The notes beneath the pieces are model-generated. The model searched no databases. It saw only the letters and a list, made by a program, of their open reading frames with translations, and was not told where the DNA came from. This document shows, piece by piece, positions 1-20,972 of a stretch of 22,192 nucleotides of DNA; the stretch's first letter is position 1; every line of letters begins with the position of its first letter. Location: positions 1 through 22,192 of the IMG/VR virus record IMGVR_UViG_3300007541_000252. One strand, 5' to 3'. Origin of the DNA: a virus. The position numbers were made by a program, and so were the translations under genes.

Positions 1-189
1 GATTATGTTCAAAATAAAGTTAAAACAACAAAATGGGATGCTTTTGATATGTGGGTTTGTAATGTTGCTCAACTAAAAGTAGGAACAGCAGAAAAAATCT
101 ATACAAAACACCTCCCAGGATTTAGTATTATTGAACAAGAATTTAAAGGAATGGACGAAAATAGTCCTGAAATTTATGCAGTAGAATGA
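1..189 (+). CDS. C-terminal 62 residues of an unidentified protein (5' truncated by window edge)
   Basis: Frame 1 is open from the first base to a TGA at 187-189. The readable tail is rich in Lys, Glu and aromatic residues (KWDAFDMWVCN early, GFSIIEQEFKGMD near the end). I do not recognise a family in these 62 residues. The stop overlaps the next start in an ATGA arrangement (186-189), so translation is probably coupled to the glycosyltransferase that follows, and the gene likely belongs to the same sugar-modification cluster. That role is inferred from position only. Confidence 0.7.
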   Translation, partial: DYVQNKVKTTKWDAFDMWVCNVAQLKVGTAEKIYTKHLPGFSIIEQEFKGMDENSPEIYAVE

Positions 190-1142
190 AAATAGCACAA
201 ATTAATCCTGGATGTGGCATTCCCATCCCACCACCCTCGTGGGGAGCAATTGAAAAAATTGTTTGGGAATTTATGTGTAACCTTCGTGATTTAGGTCATG
301 AAGTAGATTTACGTTGGTCGGGTGATGTTCAACCTGGTGAATACGATATTGTTCATTGTCATGTAGCAAATTTAGCTATTCAATTAGCTAAAAATAATAT
401 CCCATACATTTACCAATTACATGATCACCATGTATACCATTATGGAAAAGACTCTCATGTTTATAAAGAAAATCTAAAAGCAATTGAAGGATCCCTTGTA
501 TCATTAGTCCCCGCTAGATTTTTAGTTGATTATTTCAACCACCCAAAAGTAAAATATTTTGCTCATGGTGTAAATACTAATGAATTTTATTCTATAGAAA
601 AACCTCAACCTACAGAACCACGTTTATTAATGATTGCTAATAATGGTTTAGGAGGTAATCCAACATACGATAGAAAAGGATTTACTTATGGTTTAGGATT
701 AGCAATGATGAATAATCTAGAAATTACAATAGCCGGCCCATCAGATAATAAAAGATTTTTTAATGGTCATTTATGGATGTTCAATTATCCTAAACTAAAC
801 TTGGTTTTTGACACTCCTAATAATAAATTATTAGACCTATACCACGAACATGACATTTTCATCCACCCAACAATGTTAGAAGCAGGACATCCTAATTTAA
901 CAATGATTGAGGCAGCAGCAGCAGGCTTACCTATTATTGCTGATTGGGAAATGGAAACTGATTTTCACGGTGCTTGGAGGGCACCTCGAGATGTGTTTGA
1001 AATGGATCGTGGGTTAAAAGATATTTTAGAAAATTGGGAATTGTATAGAGCTAAAGCTATTAATACTGGCAAAGAATTATCTTGGTATAATCGTTCCAAA
1101 GAAATAGTAAAAATATATGAAACGTTCAACCAGGTTAATTAG
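186..1142 (+). CDS. GT4-type (GT-B fold) glycosyltransferase
   Basis: Likely transfers a sugar from a nucleotide-sugar donor to a glycan or protein. The N-terminus has the usual first strand and glycine-rich acceptor-side loop of GT4 enzymes (MKIAQINPGCGI, then SWGAIEKIVWEF at residues 18-29, where GGIE-type motifs usually sit). The C-terminal donor domain ends in the family signature LEAGHPNLTMIEAAAAGLP (about 231-249), with acidic residues E232 and E242. The usual spacing is E-x7-E, so this loop is two residues longer. At 318 residues it is short but complete for the family. It overlaps the preceding stop by 4 bases and the next gene by 26 bases, forming a compact operon with a methyltransferase and a GT9 enzyme. 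The sugar and acceptor cannot be read from sequence. Confidence 0.85.
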   Translation: MKIAQINPGCGIPIPPPSWGAIEKIVWEFMCNLRDLGHEVDLRWSGDVQPGEYDIVHCHVANLAIQLAKNNIPYIYQLHDHHVYHYGKDSHVYKENLKAIEGSLVSLVPARFLVDYFNHPKVKYFAHGVNTNEFYSIEKPQPTEPRLLMIANNGLGGNPTYDRKGFTYGLGLAMMNNLEITIAGPSDNKRFFNGHLWMFNYPKLNLVFDTPNNKLLDLYHEHDIFIHPTMLEAGHPNLTMIEAAAAGLPIIADWEMETDFHGAWRAPRDVFEMDRGLKDILENWELYRAKAINTGKELSWYNRSKEIVKIYETFNQVN

Positions 1143-1755
1143 TATTAAAAATATACCAATGGTTATATTTGATGCACCTGAATGTATTTCGGATGACATT
1201 GTCAAATATAGAGATTTTTGGGAATTTGAATTATTCACCGAATGGAGTGAGTATTTTCCTGAAAAAGGTTTAATGTTAGATATTGGAGCAAATATTGGCT
1301 CCCATTGTTTACAATTTAAAACCAATTTCCCAGAGTTAGAAATATATGCCTTTGAACCATTCCCAGAAAACTATGCTTTATTACACCAAAACACTAAACG
1401 ATATAAAGATATTAAATGTTTTAATATTGGTATTGGTAGCCACAATAGCATAGTCCATTTTAGTGATGGACATGAATTTAATAGTGGTGTGGTATCTATT
1501 GTTCCTGATAGTGAAAACCCAAATATTGTATTGGCACTAGATACATTTAAATTTGATAAAAAAGTAGAATTTATAAAAATTGATGTTGAAGGACATGAAT
1601 TATCTGCTTTTGAGGGAATGCGTAATTTAATTTTAAGAGATCGCCCTGTAATATGGTTAGAGGATCTTGATGGTTCTGCCGTTCCTTATTTACGTTCATT
1701 AGGATATAGCATTTTAAAATATAAACCTGACACAAAAGATTATTTAATGGTATGA
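1117..1755 (+). CDS. FkbM-family SAM-dependent methyltransferase
   Basis: Predicted O-methyltransferase, probably acting on a sugar in the same pathway as its neighbours. Class I methyltransferase motifs are clear: motif I LDIGANIGSH (54-63), the acidic residue after strand 2 in YAFEPFPENY (E80), and the FkbM signature IKIDVEGHELSAFEG (153-167). The chosen start overlaps the upstream gene by 26 bases. A second in-frame ATG at 1159 (residue 15) would remove this overlap and still leave the whole catalytic fold, so the true start is uncertain. The stop overlaps the next ATG as ATGA (1752-1755). FkbM enzymes commonly occur in glycan clusters. The substrate is unknown. Confidence 0.88.
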   Translation: MKRSTRLISIKNIPMVIFDAPECISDDIVKYRDFWEFELFTEWSEYFPEKGLMLDIGANIGSHCLQFKTNFPELEIYAFEPFPENYALLHQNTKRYKDIKCFNIGIGSHNSIVHFSDGHEFNSGVVSIVPDSENPNIVLALDTFKFDKKVEFIKIDVEGHELSAFEGMRNLILRDRPVIWLEDLDGSAVPYLRSLGYSILKYKPDTKDYLMV

Positions 1756-2951
1756 AAGAAGTTTTAATAAAAGAATATAATAACTTAGTCAAAATTCCTA
1801 GGAAATCTTTATTTCCTAAAAATACTATTTCATGCACCTTTATTAATGGTGCTAAAGTAGAAATAAACGGAAAAAACTCTAAAAAATATCAAATCCAATT
1901 TATTAATAAAGAAAATAATAAACTTATTCATGAGTCCATAATATCAAATAATATGTGGACTAAAACTAATATTCAATATTTTATTGATTACAAAATCATT
2001 ATTACTGATTTAAAAGAAAATCAAGTAGTGGAACATGATTTTAATGCTAAAGACAAAAAAGTTTATATCCATTTTGCTTCTAGTGCTTTAGGAGATACAA
2101 TAGCATGGTTTCCATATGCCGAAGAATTTAGAAAAAAACACCAATGCAAATTAGTAGTTTCTACTTTCCATAACGAAATGTTCCAAGAAAACTACCCAGA
2201 GATTGCATTTATTAAACCTGGAACTACGGTACAGAATTTATATGCTATGTATGAGGTTGGGTGGCATTATAATGAAAACGAAGAAGTAGACACTAACAAA
2301 AACATATCAGATTTTAAAAGAATAGGATTACAAGAATGTAGTTCTGAAACATTAGGAATCACCTATTCAGAAATTAAACCTAAATTAACATATAAAAATA
2401 CAGGCCCAACTATTGAAGGAGACTATGTCATAATAGCTCCTCATGGTTCGGCTCATGCCAAGTATTGGAATTACCCTGGGGGGTGGCAAACTGTAATTGA
2501 CCATTTAAATAATCAAGGTTATAAAGTTGTAATGATAACATCTGAACCTCTAGGTGATGAGTGGCATGATTCTAAATTAGGTGGAACTTTAACAGGGGTA
2601 ATTGATAAAACAGGCAATCATCCTCTAAGTGAAAGAGCTAATGATATGATGAATGCTAAAGCTTTTATAGGCATAGGAAGTGGGCTAAGTTGGTTAGCAT
2701 GGGCTCTAGAAACCCCTGTAGTAATGATTTCAGGTTTTAGTGAACCTTATAGTGAATTTGAAGATTGTGAAAGAATTACAGCTCCTAAAGATAAATGTTC
2801 TGGATGTTTTAATAGAATAAGATTAAATGCTGGAGACTGGGAATGGTGCCCAGATCATAAAGATACAGATAGAATGTTTGAATGCACAAAATCTATCACA
2901 CCTAATATAGTAATTAATGCTATAGATCGTCAATTAAAAAATTCTTTTTGA
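1752..2951 (+). CDS. GT9-type glycosyltransferase of the autotransporter O-heptosyltransferase (TibC/Aah-like) family
   Basis: This resembles the bacterial autotransporter heptosyltransferases along its full length, not only a generic GT9 domain. It has an N-terminal beta-rich region (about 1-100), a GT-B start with SALGDTIAWFPYAEEF (111-126) containing the family's Asp (D115), and a segment TVQNLYAMYEVGWHY (159-173). The second domain has IIAPHGSAHAKYWNYPGGWQ (227-246) and the donor motif FIGIGSGLSWLAWALE (305-320). It ends in a metal-finger region with C349, C352, C366 and C378 (C-x2-C-x13-C-x11-C, including NAGDWEWCPDH), matching the iron-binding finger known in TibC. Known members add heptose to Ser in beta-helical autotransporter passengers. 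Here the next gene is a Ser/Thr-rich fibre-like protein, a plausible acceptor (inference). No ADP-heptose synthesis genes lie in the window, so the donor sugar may differ. Confidence 0.85.
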   Translation: MKEVLIKEYNNLVKIPRKSLFPKNTISCTFINGAKVEINGKNSKKYQIQFINKENNKLIHESIISNNMWTKTNIQYFIDYKIIITDLKENQVVEHDFNAKDKKVYIHFASSALGDTIAWFPYAEEFRKKHQCKLVVSTFHNEMFQENYPEIAFIKPGTTVQNLYAMYEVGWHYNENEEVDTNKNISDFKRIGLQECSSETLGITYSEIKPKLTYKNTGPTIEGDYVIIAPHGSAHAKYWNYPGGWQTVIDHLNNQGYKVVMITSEPLGDEWHDSKLGGTLTGVIDKTGNHPLSERANDMMNAKAFIGIGSGLSWLAWALETPVVMISGFSEPYSEFEDCERITAPKDKCSGCFNRIRLNAGDWEWCPDHKDTDRMFECTKSITPNIVINAIDRQLKNSF

Positions 2952-2962
2952 TATTTATAATC
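2951..2962 (+). promoter_or_regulatory. Putative phage late promoter element (copy 1)
   Basis: ATATTTATAATC, 17 bases before the ATG of the fibre gene. It is one of a set of near-identical elements placed just before structural genes and always on the + strand. The match to copy 12654-12665 is exact over 12 bases. Function as a promoter is inferred from recurrence and position. Confidence 0.5.
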
Positions 2963-2979
2963 AAAAATCATTATAAACT

Positions 2980-4791
2980 ATGGCATTAACTTTATCAAAT
3001 AGTGGCATTGAATCTGGCTCAATAATTAGAGCAGCTGAAATTTCACAATCGATAGATGCTTTTACTGGAGTAGAAGCCTATAACATTAATCTTTCAGGAT
3101 CTTTAGCAGTTACTGGTTCTACTCTTATTACAGGAAGCTTATCTATAAGTGGATCAGAATCTAGTACTACCTTTTTAAAAATTGGTAATAATGACAATGC
3201 TTTTTCTTTTGAAGTTGATGAAGCTAATAATGATAGCTTTACTCTTAAAAATAATGATACAGGAAATAAAATAATTAGAATATCTACAGGTTCTAGTAAT
3301 AATACTATTGTAACTAGAAATGATCTAGGAACAGATTCATTCGAAAGGGTTGGTATTAATTGGCCTTATGAAAATTTAGATATTTTAACAACAACCCATC
3401 ATCTTAATATTAGTGGTTCTGCCACAGCGTCTGCAGGTTTTTATGGTACTCTTACAGGAACTGCTTCTTTAGCTTCTAAAGTTAAACTTTATGATGCCAT
3501 TGCAAATCAAACACTCTATGTTCCTATAACAGCTTGGAGTTTAGTTTCTGGGGATGAAGCATCATTATTAGCTACTAATAAGTTAGTTTATGATAATGTT
3601 GCTTATTTATTAATGACTACTGCATCTTGGGCTACAGCCTCAGTAAGTGCTTCTCATGCAGACAATGCTGTAACAGCTTCATATGCCCTTACTGGTGGAA
3701 CAGGAGGGGATAGTGTTTGGTATGATGGCACAACATATATTTCTGCCTCAGTATTAGTAAGTGGATCTGATTCAGGGTTTAAAGGAGGAGCATTTGTGGG
3801 TGGAGATTTTTCAGGAAGCACATACATTGGAACTAAATTTAGTGGTAGTTACTTCTCAGCTTCTAATGGTACTACAACTACAATTTTAAATGCAGAGTCA
3901 CTTCAATTTAATGAAAATGGAGCTAGTCATATTTCAAATATTAATACAGGCACAGGCGCTTCATTAAGATTTTCTGTTGGTGGAACAGGAGCCTCAAATT
4001 ACACGGCATTGCATATTGATTCTAACCATCAATTTGCTTTTGGAAACCCTTCAGTAGTAATTACTCGTCCTTTAGGATTTACTGCGGGGCAATTAGGAGC
4101 ATATGCCCAATTCGAAAATGACAATGCCGTTTCAGCTTCAGTAGTTGCCATTAAAGGTGCGACTAATAGTGATGGAGTTCTTTATATAGGAGGAACATAC
4201 ACTAATGGTGGTGGTATTCTTTGGAGAGGAGATTCTACTTCAGATTTACCCGCCAGTTTAGGTACTAATCGTACATCTTTATACAGATCAGAAAGTGAAG
4301 TAGCATATCCTGTTATTTCTTACCCATACACAGATAATCAAATAGTTTTTCATACCTCTGGAAGTAACAAAGCTTACAATGACTTGGATTATGTATCTTT
4401 ACAACCAACTTCAGGTAATTTAACTCAATACTATAGAAATTATCATTTATCAAGTTCAATAAGTACAAATAATTCCACTCATACCCTAGGTGAAATACCA
4501 ATGTTAGGTTCTGGAGTTTACTTAGTTAAATATTATCTTTCTTTAAGAGAAACTAATTCACCACCTACCGTCGTTGGTTATAGTGAAATTAATTATATAG
4601 TTCGAAGTGATGGGGGTGGATCTACTCCTACCATTGAACAAACCACCCCTATTGATCAATTTGCCACCCCTGGTTTATCAAATTTACCTGTAGCAACACC
4701 TATTACTAATGGTCTCCAATTAAGGAGTACAGGAACTTTAGGAGCTTCCATACAACATACGGGGTGGGCAATTGTAACATACAGTGGTTAA
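2980..4791 (+). CDS. Fibre-like virion protein (Ser/Gly/Thr/Ala-rich), probable tail fibre
   Basis: A 603-residue protein of low-complexity, beta-prone sequence with many short SGS, TGS and TAS units. Examples are NLSGSLAVTGSTLITGSL near residues 37-54, TGTASLASK near 158-166, and SWATASVSASHADNAVTASYAL around 216-237. Such alternating small/hydroxyl residues are characteristic of trimeric beta-structured fibres and of marine phage tail-fibre proteins. No enzymatic motif is visible. It follows the glycosyltransferase cluster, is preceded by a promoter-like element, and precedes the sheath and tube genes, so a receptor-binding or decoration role is likely. Its abundant Ser and Thr make it a plausible substrate for the adjacent TibC-like enzyme (inference). 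The exact fibre class cannot be assigned from sequence alone. Confidence 0.65.
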   Translation: MALTLSNSGIESGSIIRAAEISQSIDAFTGVEAYNINLSGSLAVTGSTLITGSLSISGSESSTTFLKIGNNDNAFSFEVDEANNDSFTLKNNDTGNKIIRISTGSSNNTIVTRNDLGTDSFERVGINWPYENLDILTTTHHLNISGSATASAGFYGTLTGTASLASKVKLYDAIANQTLYVPITAWSLVSGDEASLLATNKLVYDNVAYLLMTTASWATASVSASHADNAVTASYALTGGTGGDSVWYDGTTYISASVLVSGSDSGFKGGAFVGGDFSGSTYIGTKFSGSYFSASNGTTTTILNAESLQFNENGASHISNINTGTGASLRFSVGGTGASNYTALHIDSNHQFAFGNPSVVITRPLGFTAGQLGAYAQFENDNAVSASVVAIKGATNSDGVLYIGGTYTNGGGILWRGDSTSDLPASLGTNRTSLYRSESEVAYPVISYPYTDNQIVFHTSGSNKAYNDLDYVSLQPTSGNLTQYYRNYHLSSSISTNNSTHTLGEIPMLGSGVYLVKYYLSLRETNSPPTVVGYSEINYIVRSDGGGSTPTIEQTTPIDQFATPGLSNLPVATPITNGLQLRSTGTLGASIQHTGWAIVTYSG

Positions 4792-4833: not shown

Positions 4834-5079
4834 ATGGCAAAATTAACAAATGAAGAGATTACTAAAATTAATAATCTTAAAACAGAATTCAACAAATTAG
4901 TAGAAACCTTAGGTGCTGTAGAGGTTCAATTAATAACCTTTACATCCCGAAAAGAAAAGTTAAAGATGGAATTGTTAAAGCTTCAAGAAGAAGAACTTAA
5001 AGTAGCTAAAGGATTAGAAGAAAAATATGGTAATGGAACTATTTCTTTAGAAACTGGCGAGTTTTCTCCAAACGGATAG
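4834..5079 (+). CDS. Small coiled-coil protein of unknown function
   Basis: 81 residues. Residues 4-65 read as a nearly continuous amphipathic helix or helical hairpin with heptad-like Leu/Val/Ile spacing (NLKTEFNKLVETLGAVEV, then LKMELLKLQEEELKVAKGL), and end in a short polar tail with GNGTISLETGEF. The segment around TFTSRKEK may be the turn between two helices. I see no catalytic motif. It lies 42 bases after the fibre gene with an A-rich, Shine-Dalgarno-free leader, and no promoter-like element precedes it, so it is probably co-transcribed with the fibre gene. It could be a small virion component or an assembly chaperone; neither is established. Confidence 0.7.
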   Translation: MAKLTNEEITKINNLKTEFNKLVETLGAVEVQLITFTSRKEKLKMELLKLQEEELKVAKGLEEKYGNGTISLETGEFSPNG

Positions 5080-5131: not shown

Positions 5132-7399
5132 ATGGCAGAAACATTAATTTCCCCTGGAGTATTAGCAAGAGAAAATGATCAGTCCCAAATCACTTCTCAA
5201 CCAATACAAGCCGGTGCAGCAATAGTAGGTCCTACAGTAAAGGGTCAAGTAAACATTCCTAAACTTGTTACTACTTACAGTGAATACCAAGCTAATTTTG
5301 GTACTACTTTTGATAGTGGGTCCGATGAATACACATTTTTTACCTCAATCTCAGCTTACAATTACTTCCAAAACGGAGGTACTTCTTTGTTGGTAACTAG
5401 AGTAGCTTCTGGTTCATTTACTTCTGCTACTTCTTCTAGAATTTATAACGACCAGGAAAGTGGTGCTATTTTATCAGGAACTAATTTAGTAGGTTCTTAC
5501 ACCAGTGGAGGTTCAGGAGGAGCAGCTTCAACTTACAGTGATGTTGCTACTACTACTTCGGGTACTGGAACGGGACTTAGTGTAGATGTTACTACTTCTA
5601 CTAATAATGGTAAATTATTGACCACAGCTGATGCTTTGTTATCATCTATTACTACAAACACATCTGATGGTACTGATAATACCTACACAGGTGTTAGTTT
5701 AACAGGTGGTACTGGTACAGGAGCAGAAGCAACAGTAGTAGTATCTTCAAATGCTGTAAGTTCAATCACAGTAACAACAGCTGGTACAGGGTATGTTGCC
5801 ACTGATGTGTTAACTATTTCTACTGCAACTATTGGTGGTACTACAAATGTAGCAATTACATTAGTTTCAGGTGATTTATTAGTTGAAACAACTGCTGTAA
5901 CCGCTCAAGATGCAGGTTCAGGATACGCAGTAGGAGACACAGTAACTATAGCAGCAGCTAGTATAGGTACCCCAACAGCTAACTTAGTATTAACTTTAGT
6001 AGATGCTAATATTGAAGATGCAAATGCTTTTACTTTAGAAACAATTGGTGAAGGTGTTATTATGAACAACGCTGGAACATTAAATTCTCAAGGTGCTATT
6101 TCAACAGGTACTTCAGATAACTTAAGATGGGAAATTTCCTCACCAAATACTTCATCAGGTACATTTAGTGTAATCATTAGACAAGGTAATGATACAAACA
6201 GAGCTAAATCAGTACTTGAAAGCTTTAATAACGTATCATTAGATCCAAAATCACCTAACTATATTGCTAGAATAATCGGTGATCAAAAACAAGTAGTTAG
6301 AGGATCTGGAACCGATGTTTACTTACAAACTAGTGGTTCTTATCGTAACGCTTCAAGATATGTAAGAGTAAAAGAAGTAAATTATAAAACTCCTGATTAT
6401 TTAGATAATAGTGGTACTGCAAAATCACAATACACAGCTTCTATCCCAGTAGCACAAAGTGGTTCATTTGGAGACGCTGAAGGTAGCATTTTGACAGGAA
6501 CTGGTAAATACTACCAATACATTACTTCAACTGACACTCAGGGATTAAAAGAAGGTAACTACACTACAGCTTTTAATATCTTAGCTAACAAAGACGATTT
6601 TAAATATAATATCATCTCAGCCCCAGGATTGTATCAATCAGGATACTCTTCAGCATTAACTACTTTGGTAGCAAACACTGAAAATAGAGGAGATAATATT
6701 GTAATATTAGATCTTGAACCATATGATTCTGCAATTGATGTTGTTACATCAACAGCAGCCGCAAAAGATACTTCATATGCTGCTTCATACTGGCCTTGGT
6801 GTATGGTAATCGACCCAGATTCTGGACAAAGAGTTTGGGTACCAGCCTCAACATTGATCCCAGGTGTTTATGCTAATAACGATAAAACAGCTGAAGCTTG
6901 GTTTGCCCCTGCTGGTATTAACAGAGGTGGTTTAGGACAAGTAATCCAAGCTGAAAGAAAATTAACACAATCTAACAGAGATACTTTATACACTGGTAAA
7001 GTTAACCCAATTGCTACATTCCCTGGTAAAGGAGTAGTAGTATTTGGCCAGAAAACATTACAAAACCAAGCAAGTGCTTTGGATAGAGTAAATGTTAGAA
7101 GATTGTTGATTGCTCTTAAAAATTACATTACACAAGTATCTGATAACTTAGTATTCGAACAAAATACAGCAGCTACTAGAAATGTATTCTTATCACAAGT
7201 TAACCCATATTTAGAATCAGTACAACAAAGACAAGGTTTATACGCGTTTAAAGTTGTAATGAACGAATCAAATAATGGACCCGATGTAATTGATAGAAAC
7301 GAATTAAGAGGTGCGATATACATCCAACCTACTAAGACGGCTGAATTCATTTACTTAGATTTCAATATCCTTCCAACAGGAGCTGAGTTCCCTGCATAA
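5132..7399 (+). CDS. Contractile tail sheath protein (T4 gp18-like)
   Basis: Forms the contractile cylinder around the tail tube. The N-terminus MAETLISPGVLARENDQSQ (1-19), followed by GAAIVGPTVKGQVNIPKLVTTYSEY, is the classic sheath start. The C-terminal conserved domain includes a segment NPIATFPGKGVVVFGQKTL (about residue 630 onward), then RVNVRRLLIALKNYI and the final FIYLDFNILPTGAEFP. Residues about 118-293 are a Thr/Gly/Ala-rich insertion with two GSGY-type repeats; canonical sheath sequence resumes at AFTLETIGEGVIMNN (299-313). The total length of 755 residues is somewhat above T4 gp18 (about 660). The leader is A-rich without a Shine-Dalgarno sequence. Tail tube follows, as in T4 (18 then 19). 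Confidence 0.95.
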   Translation: MAETLISPGVLARENDQSQITSQPIQAGAAIVGPTVKGQVNIPKLVTTYSEYQANFGTTFDSGSDEYTFFTSISAYNYFQNGGTSLLVTRVASGSFTSATSSRIYNDQESGAILSGTNLVGSYTSGGSGGAASTYSDVATTTSGTGTGLSVDVTTSTNNGKLLTTADALLSSITTNTSDGTDNTYTGVSLTGGTGTGAEATVVVSSNAVSSITVTTAGTGYVATDVLTISTATIGGTTNVAITLVSGDLLVETTAVTAQDAGSGYAVGDTVTIAAASIGTPTANLVLTLVDANIEDANAFTLETIGEGVIMNNAGTLNSQGAISTGTSDNLRWEISSPNTSSGTFSVIIRQGNDTNRAKSVLESFNNVSLDPKSPNYIARIIGDQKQVVRGSGTDVYLQTSGSYRNASRYVRVKEVNYKTPDYLDNSGTAKSQYTASIPVAQSGSFGDAEGSILTGTGKYYQYITSTDTQGLKEGNYTTAFNILANKDDFKYNIISAPGLYQSGYSSALTTLVANTENRGDNIVILDLEPYDSAIDVVTSTAAAKDTSYAASYWPWCMVIDPDSGQRVWVPASTLIPGVYANNDKTAEAWFAPAGINRGGLGQVIQAERKLTQSNRDTLYTGKVNPIATFPGKGVVVFGQKTLQNQASALDRVNVRRLLIALKNYITQVSDNLVFEQNTAATRNVFLSQVNPYLESVQQRQGLYAFKVVMNESNNGPDVIDRNELRGAIYIQPTKTAEFIYLDFNILPTGAEFPA
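5483..6010 (+). other. Extra Thr/Gly-rich beta module inserted in the sheath protein
   Basis: Codes for residues about 118-293 of the sheath. It contains two similar units: AGTGYVATDVLTISTATIGG (217-236) and AGSGYAVGDTVTIAAASIGT (261-280), each followed by a hydrophobic strand (AITLVS and LVLTLV). A glycine-rich linker GSYTSGGSGGAAS precedes it. It probably forms an exposed beta domain on the outside of the sheath; the boundaries are estimates. Confidence 0.6.
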
Positions 7400-7454: not shown

Positions 7455-7943
7455 ATGGCAGTATTAGATCCCAACGAAATATTTTTCACAGCCTTTGAAC
7501 CTAAAGTAGCTAACAGATTTATTATGTATGTTGATGGTTTTCCTTCATATATAATCAAAGGAATTAGTGGATTGGGGTTCTCGCAAGATGAAATCGTATT
7601 AAACCACATTAACACTTACAGAAAAGTAAAAGGTAAGTTAAGATGGAATGACATCACAATGCAATTGTTTGATCCAATCACACCTTCAGGTGCTCAAGCT
7701 GTAATGGAATGGGTTCGTTTACACCACGAATCAGTAACAGGTAGAGATGGTTACTCTGATTTTTATAAGAAAGATTTAACCATTGATGTATTAGGTCCTG
7801 TTGGTGATGTAGTTTCTGAATGGATTATTAAAGGTGCATTCATTAAAGACGGATCTTTTGCAGATATGAACTGGGATACAGATGGTGAAGCTCAAACCAT
7901 TGACTTAACTATCGGAATGGATTACTGCGTGTTGAATTTCTAA
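7455..7943 (+). CDS. Tail tube protein (T4 gp19-like)
   Basis: Polymerises into the inner tube through which DNA passes. 162 residues, the same size as T4 gp19 (163). Family features: an N-terminal PKVANRFIMYVDGFPSYIIKG (strand leading into the first beta sheet), a basic RKVKGKLRWNDITMQLFDP that matches the gp19 segment around its conserved Trp/Thr strand, and a C-terminus DTDGEAQTIDLTIGMDYCVL closely resembling the gp19 ending with its alternating strand and DY. It sits directly after the sheath and is followed by a strong terminator. The leader is A-rich without a Shine-Dalgarno sequence. Confidence 0.93.
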   Translation: MAVLDPNEIFFTAFEPKVANRFIMYVDGFPSYIIKGISGLGFSQDEIVLNHINTYRKVKGKLRWNDITMQLFDPITPSGAQAVMEWVRLHHESVTGRDGYSDFYKKDLTIDVLGPVGDVVSEWIIKGAFIKDGSFADMNWDTDGEAQTIDLTIGMDYCVLNF

Positions 7944-19246: not shown

Positions 19247-20512
19247 ATGTTTTGGCTGGTCGAATCTAAGGATCAAATAAAAAGGTTTTTCCAAAGTGGT
19301 TATAAGGAAGCATTTGTAGAAATTATTCCCTATAATGACACGATTCATCCTACTCAAAACGAAGTTTGTGCCCTTTATATTCGTCCGTTAGTTTCAACTA
19401 AAGGATTTATTATGCCCATTTCCCATAGTGAAACCTTGTCGGTTAATATAAACGATGTGGAACACATATTATCGCAATATGATAAGTTATATGTGCGTGA
19501 TAAAAAAGAATTTTTACATTATTTTACTTTTAAAACTCTTTTTGACATTACACTAACTTCTAATACGTATATACGCCCAACTACTCCAACTCACACTTAT
19601 TTTTACAATAAGATGGGGAGTAAAAAGGACATAAACAGAATAATACCTATAGTAAAACACTATGAGTATTGTGAAAATTTATATAATGAATTAAAAGACA
19701 AAACTAATGAGCCAATCAACGACTTTTACAACAGGTATGCTACAGTGGTGTTCAACGCCATTGAAAGAAGTGGTTTACGAATTGATAGATCCCTATTTAT
19801 TTCGTACTTTCACAATGTCGATTCCGATTACGTCTACACTCAATTCAACTTTAAAACCCTTACAGGACGACCATCAAACAAATTTGGAGGAGTAAATTAT
19901 GCCGCACTTAATAAAGAAAACGGAGCACGAAAGTGTTTTATTCCTCGTAATGACCTTCTTGTTGAGTTGGATATTAGTGCTTATCATCCTACTCTTTTGG
20001 CTAACTTGGTGGGTTATGAATTTAGTGATGGAGATATTCATAGTGCCTTTGCTAAAATGTATGGGGTGGATTATCAAAAAGCTAAGGAGCTGACATTTAA
20101 ACAGCTATACGGAGGAGTATTCGACCAATATAAGGATCTGGAGTTTTTTAAAAAAGTACAAGTATATACTGACGAATTGTGGGCAAACTATCAAGAGAAT
20201 GGTTGGATTGAAAGTCCTATTTCGGGGCATCAATTTATTGATGAAAATTTAGAAGATATGAAACCCCAAAAATTATTGAATTATGTTCTTCAAAACTTGG
20301 AGACTTCAACAAATGTTCGTATATTATGGGAAATATTTAAGATTTTAAAGGGAAAAAATACTAAGTTAATTCTTTACACTTATGATAGTTTTCTTTTAGA
20401 TGTTGACAAAAGTGAAAAACAAGTTATAAAAGAAATATTAGAGGTTTTTAAGAATTATAAGTTACAGACAAAAATAAAATATGGAAACACATACGATTTT
20501 ACAGAATCCTAG
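19247..20512 (+). CDS. Short family A (Pol I-type) DNA polymerase, divergent
   Basis: 421 residues. The palm is clear: NFKTLTGRPSNKFGGVNYAA corresponds to Pol I's TGRLSSTDPNLQNIP, and KCFIPRNDLLVELDISAYHP corresponds to QAFIAPEDYVIVSADYSQIE (motif A, catalytic Asp kept, the Glu after it replaced by His). GDIHSAFAKMYGV follows, then motif B as YQKAKELTFKQLYGG (Lys, Phe and Tyr-Gly kept, the first Arg replaced by Tyr). Motif C reads LYTYDSFLLDV, where Pol I has VHDE: Asp kept, His to Tyr, Glu to Ser. The N-terminal about 120 residues resemble a degenerate 3'-5' exonuclease fold (GFIMPISHSE, KTLFDITL) without its acidic DxE pair, so proofreading is doubtful. T4 itself uses a family B polymerase. 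It overlaps the next gene by 32 bases. Confidence 0.85.
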   Translation: MFWLVESKDQIKRFFQSGYKEAFVEIIPYNDTIHPTQNEVCALYIRPLVSTKGFIMPISHSETLSVNINDVEHILSQYDKLYVRDKKEFLHYFTFKTLFDITLTSNTYIRPTTPTHTYFYNKMGSKKDINRIIPIVKHYEYCENLYNELKDKTNEPINDFYNRYATVVFNAIERSGLRIDRSLFISYFHNVDSDYVYTQFNFKTLTGRPSNKFGGVNYAALNKENGARKCFIPRNDLLVELDISAYHPTLLANLVGYEFSDGDIHSAFAKMYGVDYQKAKELTFKQLYGGVFDQYKDLEFFKKVQVYTDELWANYQENGWIESPISGHQFIDENLEDMKPQKLLNYVLQNLETSTNVRILWEIFKILKGKNTKLILYTYDSFLLDVDKSEKQVIKEILEVFKNYKLQTKIKYGNTYDFTES

Positions 20513-20972
20513 TTATATGTATAAGTTAGATGACTTTGGTGAGTTCGACAACTTAAATATAACAGACTTGAATAATAAATTATTTTGTACGTTTACAACG
20601 TTAGAAAATCTAGATAATCTTTTAAACTCTATAATCTCTAGCTATGCTATTATGTATAACAAGATATTTGTTTTACATATAAAGAGTAATAATGAGTATG
20701 TTTGCACTTATAATATAGAGCAAGGAAATAATCTTGTATCTTTAGACCAAAATGATCTTCCTCCTAATACTATTTTAGTACATAGAAAAAAAGATACGAA
20801 TACATTATATACTATTAATGCCTTAAATGAATTAATTAAACGTCTAAATGGGGGAGTAGTAGACACTCGATTCCCTATTGAATGGCAACATTATAAAAAT
20901 ACTATCCTCCTCACCCAGCATGATGAGTTAAAACAACTAAAAACCAAAATTCATAAAATTATTGAACTTTAG
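20481..20972 (+). CDS. Phage protein of unknown function in the replication block
   Basis: 163 residues from the ATG at 20481; this start has the A-rich leader seen elsewhere but overlaps the polymerase by 32 bases. A second ATG at 20517 (residue 13) begins 5 bases after the polymerase stop and would give 151 residues. The sequence looks like a compact globular domain: LFCTFTTLENLDNLLNSII (34-52), MYNKIFVLHIKSNNEYVCTY (58-77), ILVHRKKDTNTLYTINALNE (98-117) and RFPIEWQHYKNTILL (130-144). I recall similar proteins in related phages but no established function. Its position between polymerase and gp32 suggests a replication or regulatory role (inference). Confidence 0.75.
   Translation: METHTILQNPSYMYKLDDFGEFDNLNITDLNNKLFCTFTTLENLDNLLNSIISSYAIMYNKIFVLHIKSNNEYVCTYNIEQGNNLVSLDQNDLPPNTILVHRKKDTNTLYTINALNELIKRLNGGVVDTRFPIEWQHYKNTILLTQHDELKQLKTKIHKIIEL

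Follow-up and report, generated by a model that had tools for sequence, protein, structure and literature searches.

A TibC-family glycosyltransferase cassette of T4-like phages linked to Ser/Thr-rich collagen-like repeats, with a giant virion fibre as its probable acceptor

In the literature searched, protein O-glycosylation of the TibC type is tied to autotransporter adhesins only. The key residues described for TibC are D110 (the catalytic base), K230, R286 and W305, together with four iron-binding cysteines (PMC4358343, eLife e03714), and the hydrophobic tip of its beta-hairpin thumb, F265 and V266, is needed for the dodecamer. Here we analyse a TibC-like glycosyltransferase of 399 residues encoded on a 22,192-base IMG/VR virus record with a T4-like structural module (this whole stretch is the window referred to below), and describe a specific association of its family with Ser/Thr-rich collagen-like (Gly-X-Y) repeat genes.

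In mycobacteriophage capsids and tails, phage glycosyltransferases are thought to modify the phage's own structural proteins. The Maravista announcement likewise suggests virion glycosylation by phage-encoded glycosyltransferases. For collagen-like acceptors, the mimivirus enzyme R699 glucosylates galactosyl-hydroxylysine on collagen (PMC9546862), and BclA of Bacillus spores is a glycosylated Gly-X-Y protein, while the collagens of phages have been described as short (about 18 residues) and glycosylation of bacterial collagen as rare (PMC8968730). The literature searched yielded no report on a phage TibC, on TibC in combination with collagen-like proteins, or on phage GTSG repeats.

Identity and phylogenetic placement of the TibC-like enzyme

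The 399-residue protein matches nearly the whole of TIGR04414, the NCBIfam model for autotransporter O-heptosyltransferases (321.4 bits, E 6.9e-96; curated cut-off 200 bits), and matches TibC in the PDB (4rap/4rb4, E 5-6e-60) over residues 29-394. Models for heptosyltransferases of lipopolysaccharide (LPS), namely RfaC, RfaF and RfaQ, scored no higher than 44.8 bits, their cut-offs being 134-569, and a grouping with LPS enzymes of family GT9, examined by these family scores, was not borne out. An AlphaFold2 (AF2) model built from 36 sequences, with a predicted local distance difference test score (pLDDT) of 91.7, has an N-terminal beta-barrel and a GT-B fold like those of TibC; Foldseek against the PDB places TibC 4rap at the top (template-modelling (TM) score 0.83/0.87, E 8.5e-38), followed by LPS heptosyltransferases with scores of about 0.5. 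The TibC/Aah type proposed in the initial annotation is thus upheld by both profile and predicted structure.

The motifs named in that annotation are likewise all present: ALGD at residue 112, the donor motif GSGLSWLAWALE at 309, GDWEWCPDH at 361, FECT at 376, and the pattern C-x2-C-x13-C-x11-C, whose spacing was not reproduced by any of 20,000 shuffled versions of the protein. The pattern is formed by C349, C352, C366 and C378, equivalent to the iron-finger cysteines 339, 342, 358 and 370 of TibC, and D110, K230, R286 and W305 of TibC have their counterparts in D115, K237, R295 and W314. The counterpart of TibC T226 is S233, a serine also found in 19 of 34 canonical members. Across the phage clade described below, D110, K230, W305 and the four cysteines are kept in 57 of 57 proteins and R286, the adenine-contacting arginine, in 55 of 57. 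Judged by its sequence, the window enzyme is a member of the TibC/Aah family with intact catalytic and iron-finger residues and predicted iron binding. The Phe-Val tip of the TibC thumb is absent, with Ser274/Lys275 at those columns in 57 of 57 phage members, and no hairpin is predicted in the thumb region of the AF2 model. Because the F265/V266 pair varies among canonical members too, the thumb tip is a weak criterion and was dropped as a mark of the family.

A tree of 115 proteins—a quick search, midpoint-rooted and computed without an LPS GT9 outgroup—separates a canonical branch (TibC, enterics, Burkholderiaceae and Selenomonads) from the rest with a Shimodaira-Hasegawa-like approximate likelihood-ratio test (SH-aLRT) support of 99. 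The phage clade (SH-aLRT 100), made of 55 viral rows and two contigs of Flavobacteriia metagenome-assembled genomes (MAGs), lies in the non-canonical branch, with Methylococcaceae and other bacteria as neighbours. A canonical member scores 612 bits against TIGR04414, about twice the window protein, while other non-canonical members from phages and bacteria score 222-334. The window enzyme appears to belong to a sister branch and not beside TibC; of the grouping with the TibC/Aah branch first proposed, the family membership stands.

Close relatives of the window enzyme are encoded on 234 viral stretches, and on at least 579 viral contig stretches when an alignment is used as query, which overturns the view that such an enzyme would be unusual in a tailed phage. 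Sporadic acquisition by one phage is ruled out by this number and by the conserved location of the gene. In the phage collection, homologues occur in four records, those of Microcystis phage Mel-JY01 and of three uncultured large phages.

Linkage of TIGR04414 to Ser/Thr-rich Gly-X-Y repeats

In relatives of the window, a giant Gly-X-Y repeat gene lies upstream of the glycosyltransferase genes. It was found there in 36 of 44 dereplicated loci having at least 1.8 kb of DNA before the large first enzyme of the cassette, and elsewhere in the locus in 2 more. The copy in locus L011 matches Pfam Collagen PF01391 in 23 stretches (E 6.7e-172, 557.9 bits); its longest in-phase tract counts 494 Gly triplets, with mostly Thr at X and mostly Ser at Y, GTS being the commonest triplet (192) and proline nearly absent. 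At the sequence level, the partner gene thus combines the PF01391 match with a glycine at every third residue. The tracts of relatives are of the same GTS/GSS kind, mostly 35-50% Ser+Thr and nearly free of proline. A full-length copy encodes 2467 residues, those at both ends being outside the repeat; its position, with head/neck-like genes on one side and the cassette on the other, suggests a virion fibre.

The same association is seen in Bacteria. Ser/Thr-rich Gly-X-Y genes are present at 15 of 23 bacterial loci of the non-canonical branch versus 0 of 55 of the TibC branch (P 1e-10, without phylogenetic correction; loci L088 and L098 were put in the non-canonical branch by similarity). The encoded proteins have GTS/GSS repeats, several behind signal-peptide-like or lipoprotein-like starts. 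When whole genomes are considered under the strict requirement of a six-triplet G-[ST]-[ST] tract, 13 of 23 genomes of the non-canonical branch have one. In 12 of these 13 the tract shares a contig with the enzyme gene and lies within about 11 kb of it, mostly less than 1.5 kb away (the reading for G199 being taken from locus L124). Of the canonical genomes, 3 of 23 have such a tract, in no case on the enzyme's contig. Among the cultured bacteria, Methylobacter luteus (G103) encodes a GTS-repeat protein next to the enzyme.

A further line of evidence starts from the repeat. Of 50 viral records selected with a DNA pattern for GT(S/T) repeats, 21 contain TIGR04414, versus 1 of 50 selected with one for proline-collagen (GPX) repeats (P 4.7e-7), and the single positive GPX control has 299 Ser/Thr repeat matches of its own. 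Record length does not account for this co-occurrence, since the difference persists at 60 kb or more (13 of 16 versus 1 of 12, P 1.7e-4). Glycosyltransferase richness as a cause is ruled out because generic GT2 enzymes are equally frequent in both sets (12 of 50 repeat-drawn and 13 of 50 GPX records), so that the linkage is one of this enzyme family with this repeat type. TIGR04414 is thus specifically linked to Ser/Thr-rich Gly-X-Y repeats in both phages and bacteria.

Two of the large or cultured phages deserve separate description. The 735-kb uncultured phage LR756501 encodes a TIGR04414 member of 307 bits, and its Ser/Thr Gly-X-Y pattern matches number 1,273 on the minus strand and 5 on the plus strand. 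In Mel-JY01, whose genome is complete, the region 739-3052 holds a plus-strand GTS-repeat frame, with a tract of 149 triplets from 836, where the deposited annotation has a minus-strand hypothetical open reading frame (ORF) at 739-2298; the fused GT4/TibC enzyme described below is encoded less than 4 kb from this frame.

Organisation of the cassette

The genes of the window that make up the cassette and its right flank are as follows.

1..189, + strand: large (~900 aa) GT4 + GT25-like glycosyltransferase, 3' end, 62 aa; clusters with relatives' proteins of 885-916 aa
186..1142, + strand: GT4-type glycosyltransferase, 318 aa; PF00534 E 3.9e-05, 23.7 bits, short of the 26.4-bit cut-off
1117..1755, + strand: FkbM-family methyltransferase, 212 aa; TIGR01444 79.1 bits (cut-off 37.7), PF05050 62.3 bits
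1752..2951, + strand: TibC/Aah-family (TIGR04414) glycosyltransferase, 399 aa; profile, PDB, fold and residue matches
2980..4791, + strand: Ser/Thr-rich putative tail fibre, 603 aa; 25% Ser+Thr, family in 10 loci
4834..5079, + strand: conserved gene, 81 aa; homologues in 62 loci, directly 5' of the sheath gene
5132..7399, + strand: tail sheath protein, right border of the cassette; PF17482 48.3 bits, phrog_23 E 4.4e-65, 77 loci
7455..7943, + strand: tail tube protein; phrog_4542 E 2.6e-22, 76 loci

The GT4 and FkbM neighbours reported earlier are therefore real, as is the phage context, given by the virus record and by the sheath and tube genes downstream, beyond which the window holds more tail or baseplate-like genes. 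The GT4 gene overlaps both of its flanking genes. The fragment at 1..189, which the initial annotation had not noted, lost the rest of its gene at the left end of the contig; the full-length gene is the head of the cassette in relatives, and its L011 homologue matches PF00534 with 40.6 bits and PF01755 (GT25) with 21.6 bits, under the 24-bit cut-off. GT25 is the family containing the animal collagen galactosyltransferases, and the Pfam match of the cassette enzyme to it is weak.

The usual left-to-right order in 80 viral loci is the giant Gly-X-Y gene, small virion-like genes, the ~900-aa GT4+GT25-like enzyme, a GT4 enzyme of about 315 aa, an optional FkbM gene, the TibC-like enzyme, an optional variable gene, the 81-aa gene, the sheath and the tube. 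The GT4 gene lies directly 5' of the TibC-like gene or of FkbM in nearly all relatives, FkbM is a stand-alone gene family in 10 loci, and the sheath gene is present in 77 of 82 loci examined. Several relatives carry fused enzymes: a methyltransferase-like domain is joined to TibC in L002 (568 aa) and L034 (566 aa), GT4 is joined to TibC in L016 (708 aa), a pair of cassette enzymes is also fused in L003, and Mel-JY01 has one protein of 1226 aa that begins with GT4 and ends with TibC. These fusions suggest that the cassette enzymes act in one pathway. The Mel-JY01 protein was deposited under the name 'methyltransferase FkbM' only.

Further sugar genes lie in or beside the cassette of some relatives, a NodU-type carbamoyltransferase (545 aa) in L031, L051, L073 and L079 and an NAD-dependent sugar epimerase (333 aa) in L023, L051, L052 and L059, as if the glycan varied between phages. 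In L063, L068, L069 and L080 the TibC-like enzyme is kept with no Ser/Thr-rich repeat gene in reach, and a GT2-methyltransferase, a DUF6445 protein and a 2-oxoglutarate-Fe(II) oxygenase are found upstream of the cassette; the Gly-X-Y genes of L068 have a proline content of 5-7% and may encode hydroxylated collagen.

The two MAG contigs of the phage clade, L086 and L087, were binned into Flavobacteriales and Winogradskyella MAGs; they resemble phage contigs with cassette and repeat gene, L087 having sheath-sized and tube-sized genes as well as a repeat gene. This binning, together with the sheath of the cultured Flavobacterium phage immuto, which is 52% identical, hints at Flavobacteriia as hosts. 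Immuto was considered as a carrier of the cassette and rejected: no glycosyltransferase is annotated there, and no Gly-X-Y repeat was found in the stretch read.

Two other features of the window may be mentioned. Its sheath protein (5132-7399) has a Ser/Thr/Gly-rich stretch at about residues 130-400 that resembles an insertion and is a candidate second surface for modification. At 19247-20972, a protein of 421 residues matches only positions 937-1225 of the 1445 of phrog_17, a DNA polymerase family, and overlaps with the next ORF, of 163 aa; the window may thus encode a split polymerase.

Proposed role, rival explanations and relation to known systems

From gene content and order, we consider it likely that the cassette O-glycosylates the phage's own giant Ser/Thr-rich collagen-like virion fibre. 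The likely acceptor would be the Gly-X-Y fibre of GTS/GSS/GKS triplets that relatives encode just upstream. In the infected cell, the TibC-like enzyme would put the first sugar on Ser/Thr of the periodic GTS ladder, the GT4 and GT4+GT25-like enzymes would lengthen the sugar chain, and FkbM, where present, would O-methylate the glycan. Dense O-glycans could stiffen and hydrate the proline-free collagen-like rod in place of hydroxyproline, and the fibre glycan may tune adsorption or shield the particle. In this proposal we infer the role of the repeat as acceptor, the order of the steps, the sugar and the purpose.

Several observations weigh against it. The window is cut off before the repeat gene, which is not itself inside it, and the presence of the gene in this phage is deduced from relatives (the nearest, L002, is 81% identical). 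No Ser/Thr-rich repeat gene is in reach in 6 of the 44 loci (L031, L063, L068, L080, L081 and L204), and 29 of the 50 repeat-bearing viral records, many of them fragments, are without TIGR04414. The TibC substrates known so far are beta-helices and not Gly-X-Y rods. Finally, in none of 61 Flavobacteriaceae genomes does an ADP-heptose synthase domain (RfaE domain II) reach the cut-off, and the sugar may therefore be other than heptose; the domain is present in the Flavobacteriales MAG holding a relative. Two relatives of nearly 160 kb encode a nucleotidyltransferase of 136-137 aa like RfaE domain II (G111:C1:72099-72482 and G112:C1:43421-43804; 102-113 bits, under the cut-off), which possibly makes the activated sugar.

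The initial annotation had named a different acceptor, the Ser/Thr-rich ORF directly downstream of the enzyme gene, and taken the two as a gene pair. The two ORFs are confirmed as annotated, on the same strand with 28 bases between them, the downstream product is indeed Ser/Thr-rich (8 SGS, 3 TGS and 5 TAS), and its homologues are kept in several of the nearest relatives (L002, L005, L011 and L018). However, its family is found in 10 of 81 TibC-bearing loci, at 31-39% identity to the homologues compared, while most relatives have an unrelated gene or none between TibC and the 81-aa and sheath genes; it is therefore probably the wrong partner and is ruled out as a conserved one, the recurring partnership being that of the cassette with the giant repeat gene upstream. 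The 603-residue protein has no match in Pfam or PHROGs, a chance-level match only in NCBIfam and no match to the autotransporter glycosylation-repeat model, and its AF2 model (pLDDT 37.8) is uninformative. A downstream acceptor would also leave the Gly-X-Y link in bacteria and across viruses unexplained, and we regard it as unlikely, the downstream fibre now being probably a weaker acceptor candidate. A TibC-type enzyme acting on the phage's own fibre thus remains from the earlier interpretation, probably with another fibre.

That the cassette modifies LPS or a surface polysaccharide of the infected host, for instance to block superinfection or change the receptor, seems more doubtful still. 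LPS enzymes do occur in families GT9, GT4 and GT25, and glycosyltransferases of pelagimyophages have been read as O-chain modifiers (PMC7029224), but the LPS heptosyltransferase models stay far under their cut-offs, the cassette sits between structural genes and adjoins the sheath gene, and it is TIGR04414, not GT2, to which the repeats are specifically linked. Relatives are non-independent samples and the bacterial Gly-X-Y counts lack phylogenetic correction, so that both genes might simply mark certain aquatic phages and bacteria by lineage or ecology, with no enzyme-substrate relation. This we hold to be very improbable, since in multi-megabase bacterial genomes the tracts adjoin the enzyme gene, mostly within 1.5 kb, and the same arrangement is met again in Methylococcaceae, other Gammaproteobacteria, T4-like phages, the 735-kb phage and Mel-JY01. 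The slightest chance is given to action on a beta-helical protein, as with TibC, be it a host autotransporter or a domain of sheath or fibre: the iron finger, which in TibC contacts the beta-helix of TibA (PMC4358343), is conserved, and sheath proteins of this phage group differ in length, between about 570 and 900 aa, yet no partner autotransporter was matched among the cassette and structural genes scanned, the downstream fibre lacks the target repeat, and the enzyme's branch is separate from TibC.

If glycosylation of the giant fibre is true, a pathway for it has been overlooked in at least several hundred uncultivated aquatic phages, a role would be given to glycosyltransferases that are commonly classed as auxiliary genes for LPS modification, and the stability of giant Gly-X-Y fibres without proline could be accounted for. 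A simple tripeptide repeat would become a testable glycosylation sequence, Mel-JY01 a cultured test system, and a repeat-directed glycosylation tool might follow. With somewhat less confidence, we propose that the enzyme represents a second, hitherto unrecognised TibC-family branch, common to methanotrophs, other bacteria and many phages, whose dedicated role is to O-glycosylate Gly-X-Y (GTS/GSS) repeats that are rich in Ser/Thr and free of proline. The collagen-like fibres so glycosylated, both on phage particles and on cell surfaces, would then form a new class.

Compared with known systems, the enzyme is of a known kind, and its new candidate substrate class is strongly supported. The window enzyme shares with TibC/AAH a family score above the cut-off, the fold, the catalytic Asp, the donor Lys/Arg/Trp and the four iron-finger cysteines; it differs in its separate branch, about half the canonical score, a thumb tip that is not kept and possibly another donor sugar, and its relatives have Gly-X-Y Ser/Thr repeat genes nearby where no autotransporter was found. 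BclA is a glycosylated Gly-X-Y protein, although it lies on the spore surface and is modified by other enzymes on proline-containing repeats, whereas the phage-linked repeats are nearly proline-free. In the mycobacteriophages, as far as the literature searched shows, the enzymes are not of the TibC family and the acceptors not collagen-like. The nearest functional precedent for a virus glycosylating collagen is mimivirus, which encodes both collagen-like proteins and the enzymes that glycosylate them (L230; R699); here, in contrast, the putative acceptor residues are Ser/Thr, the enzyme is of the GT9/TibC type and the virus is a tailed phage.

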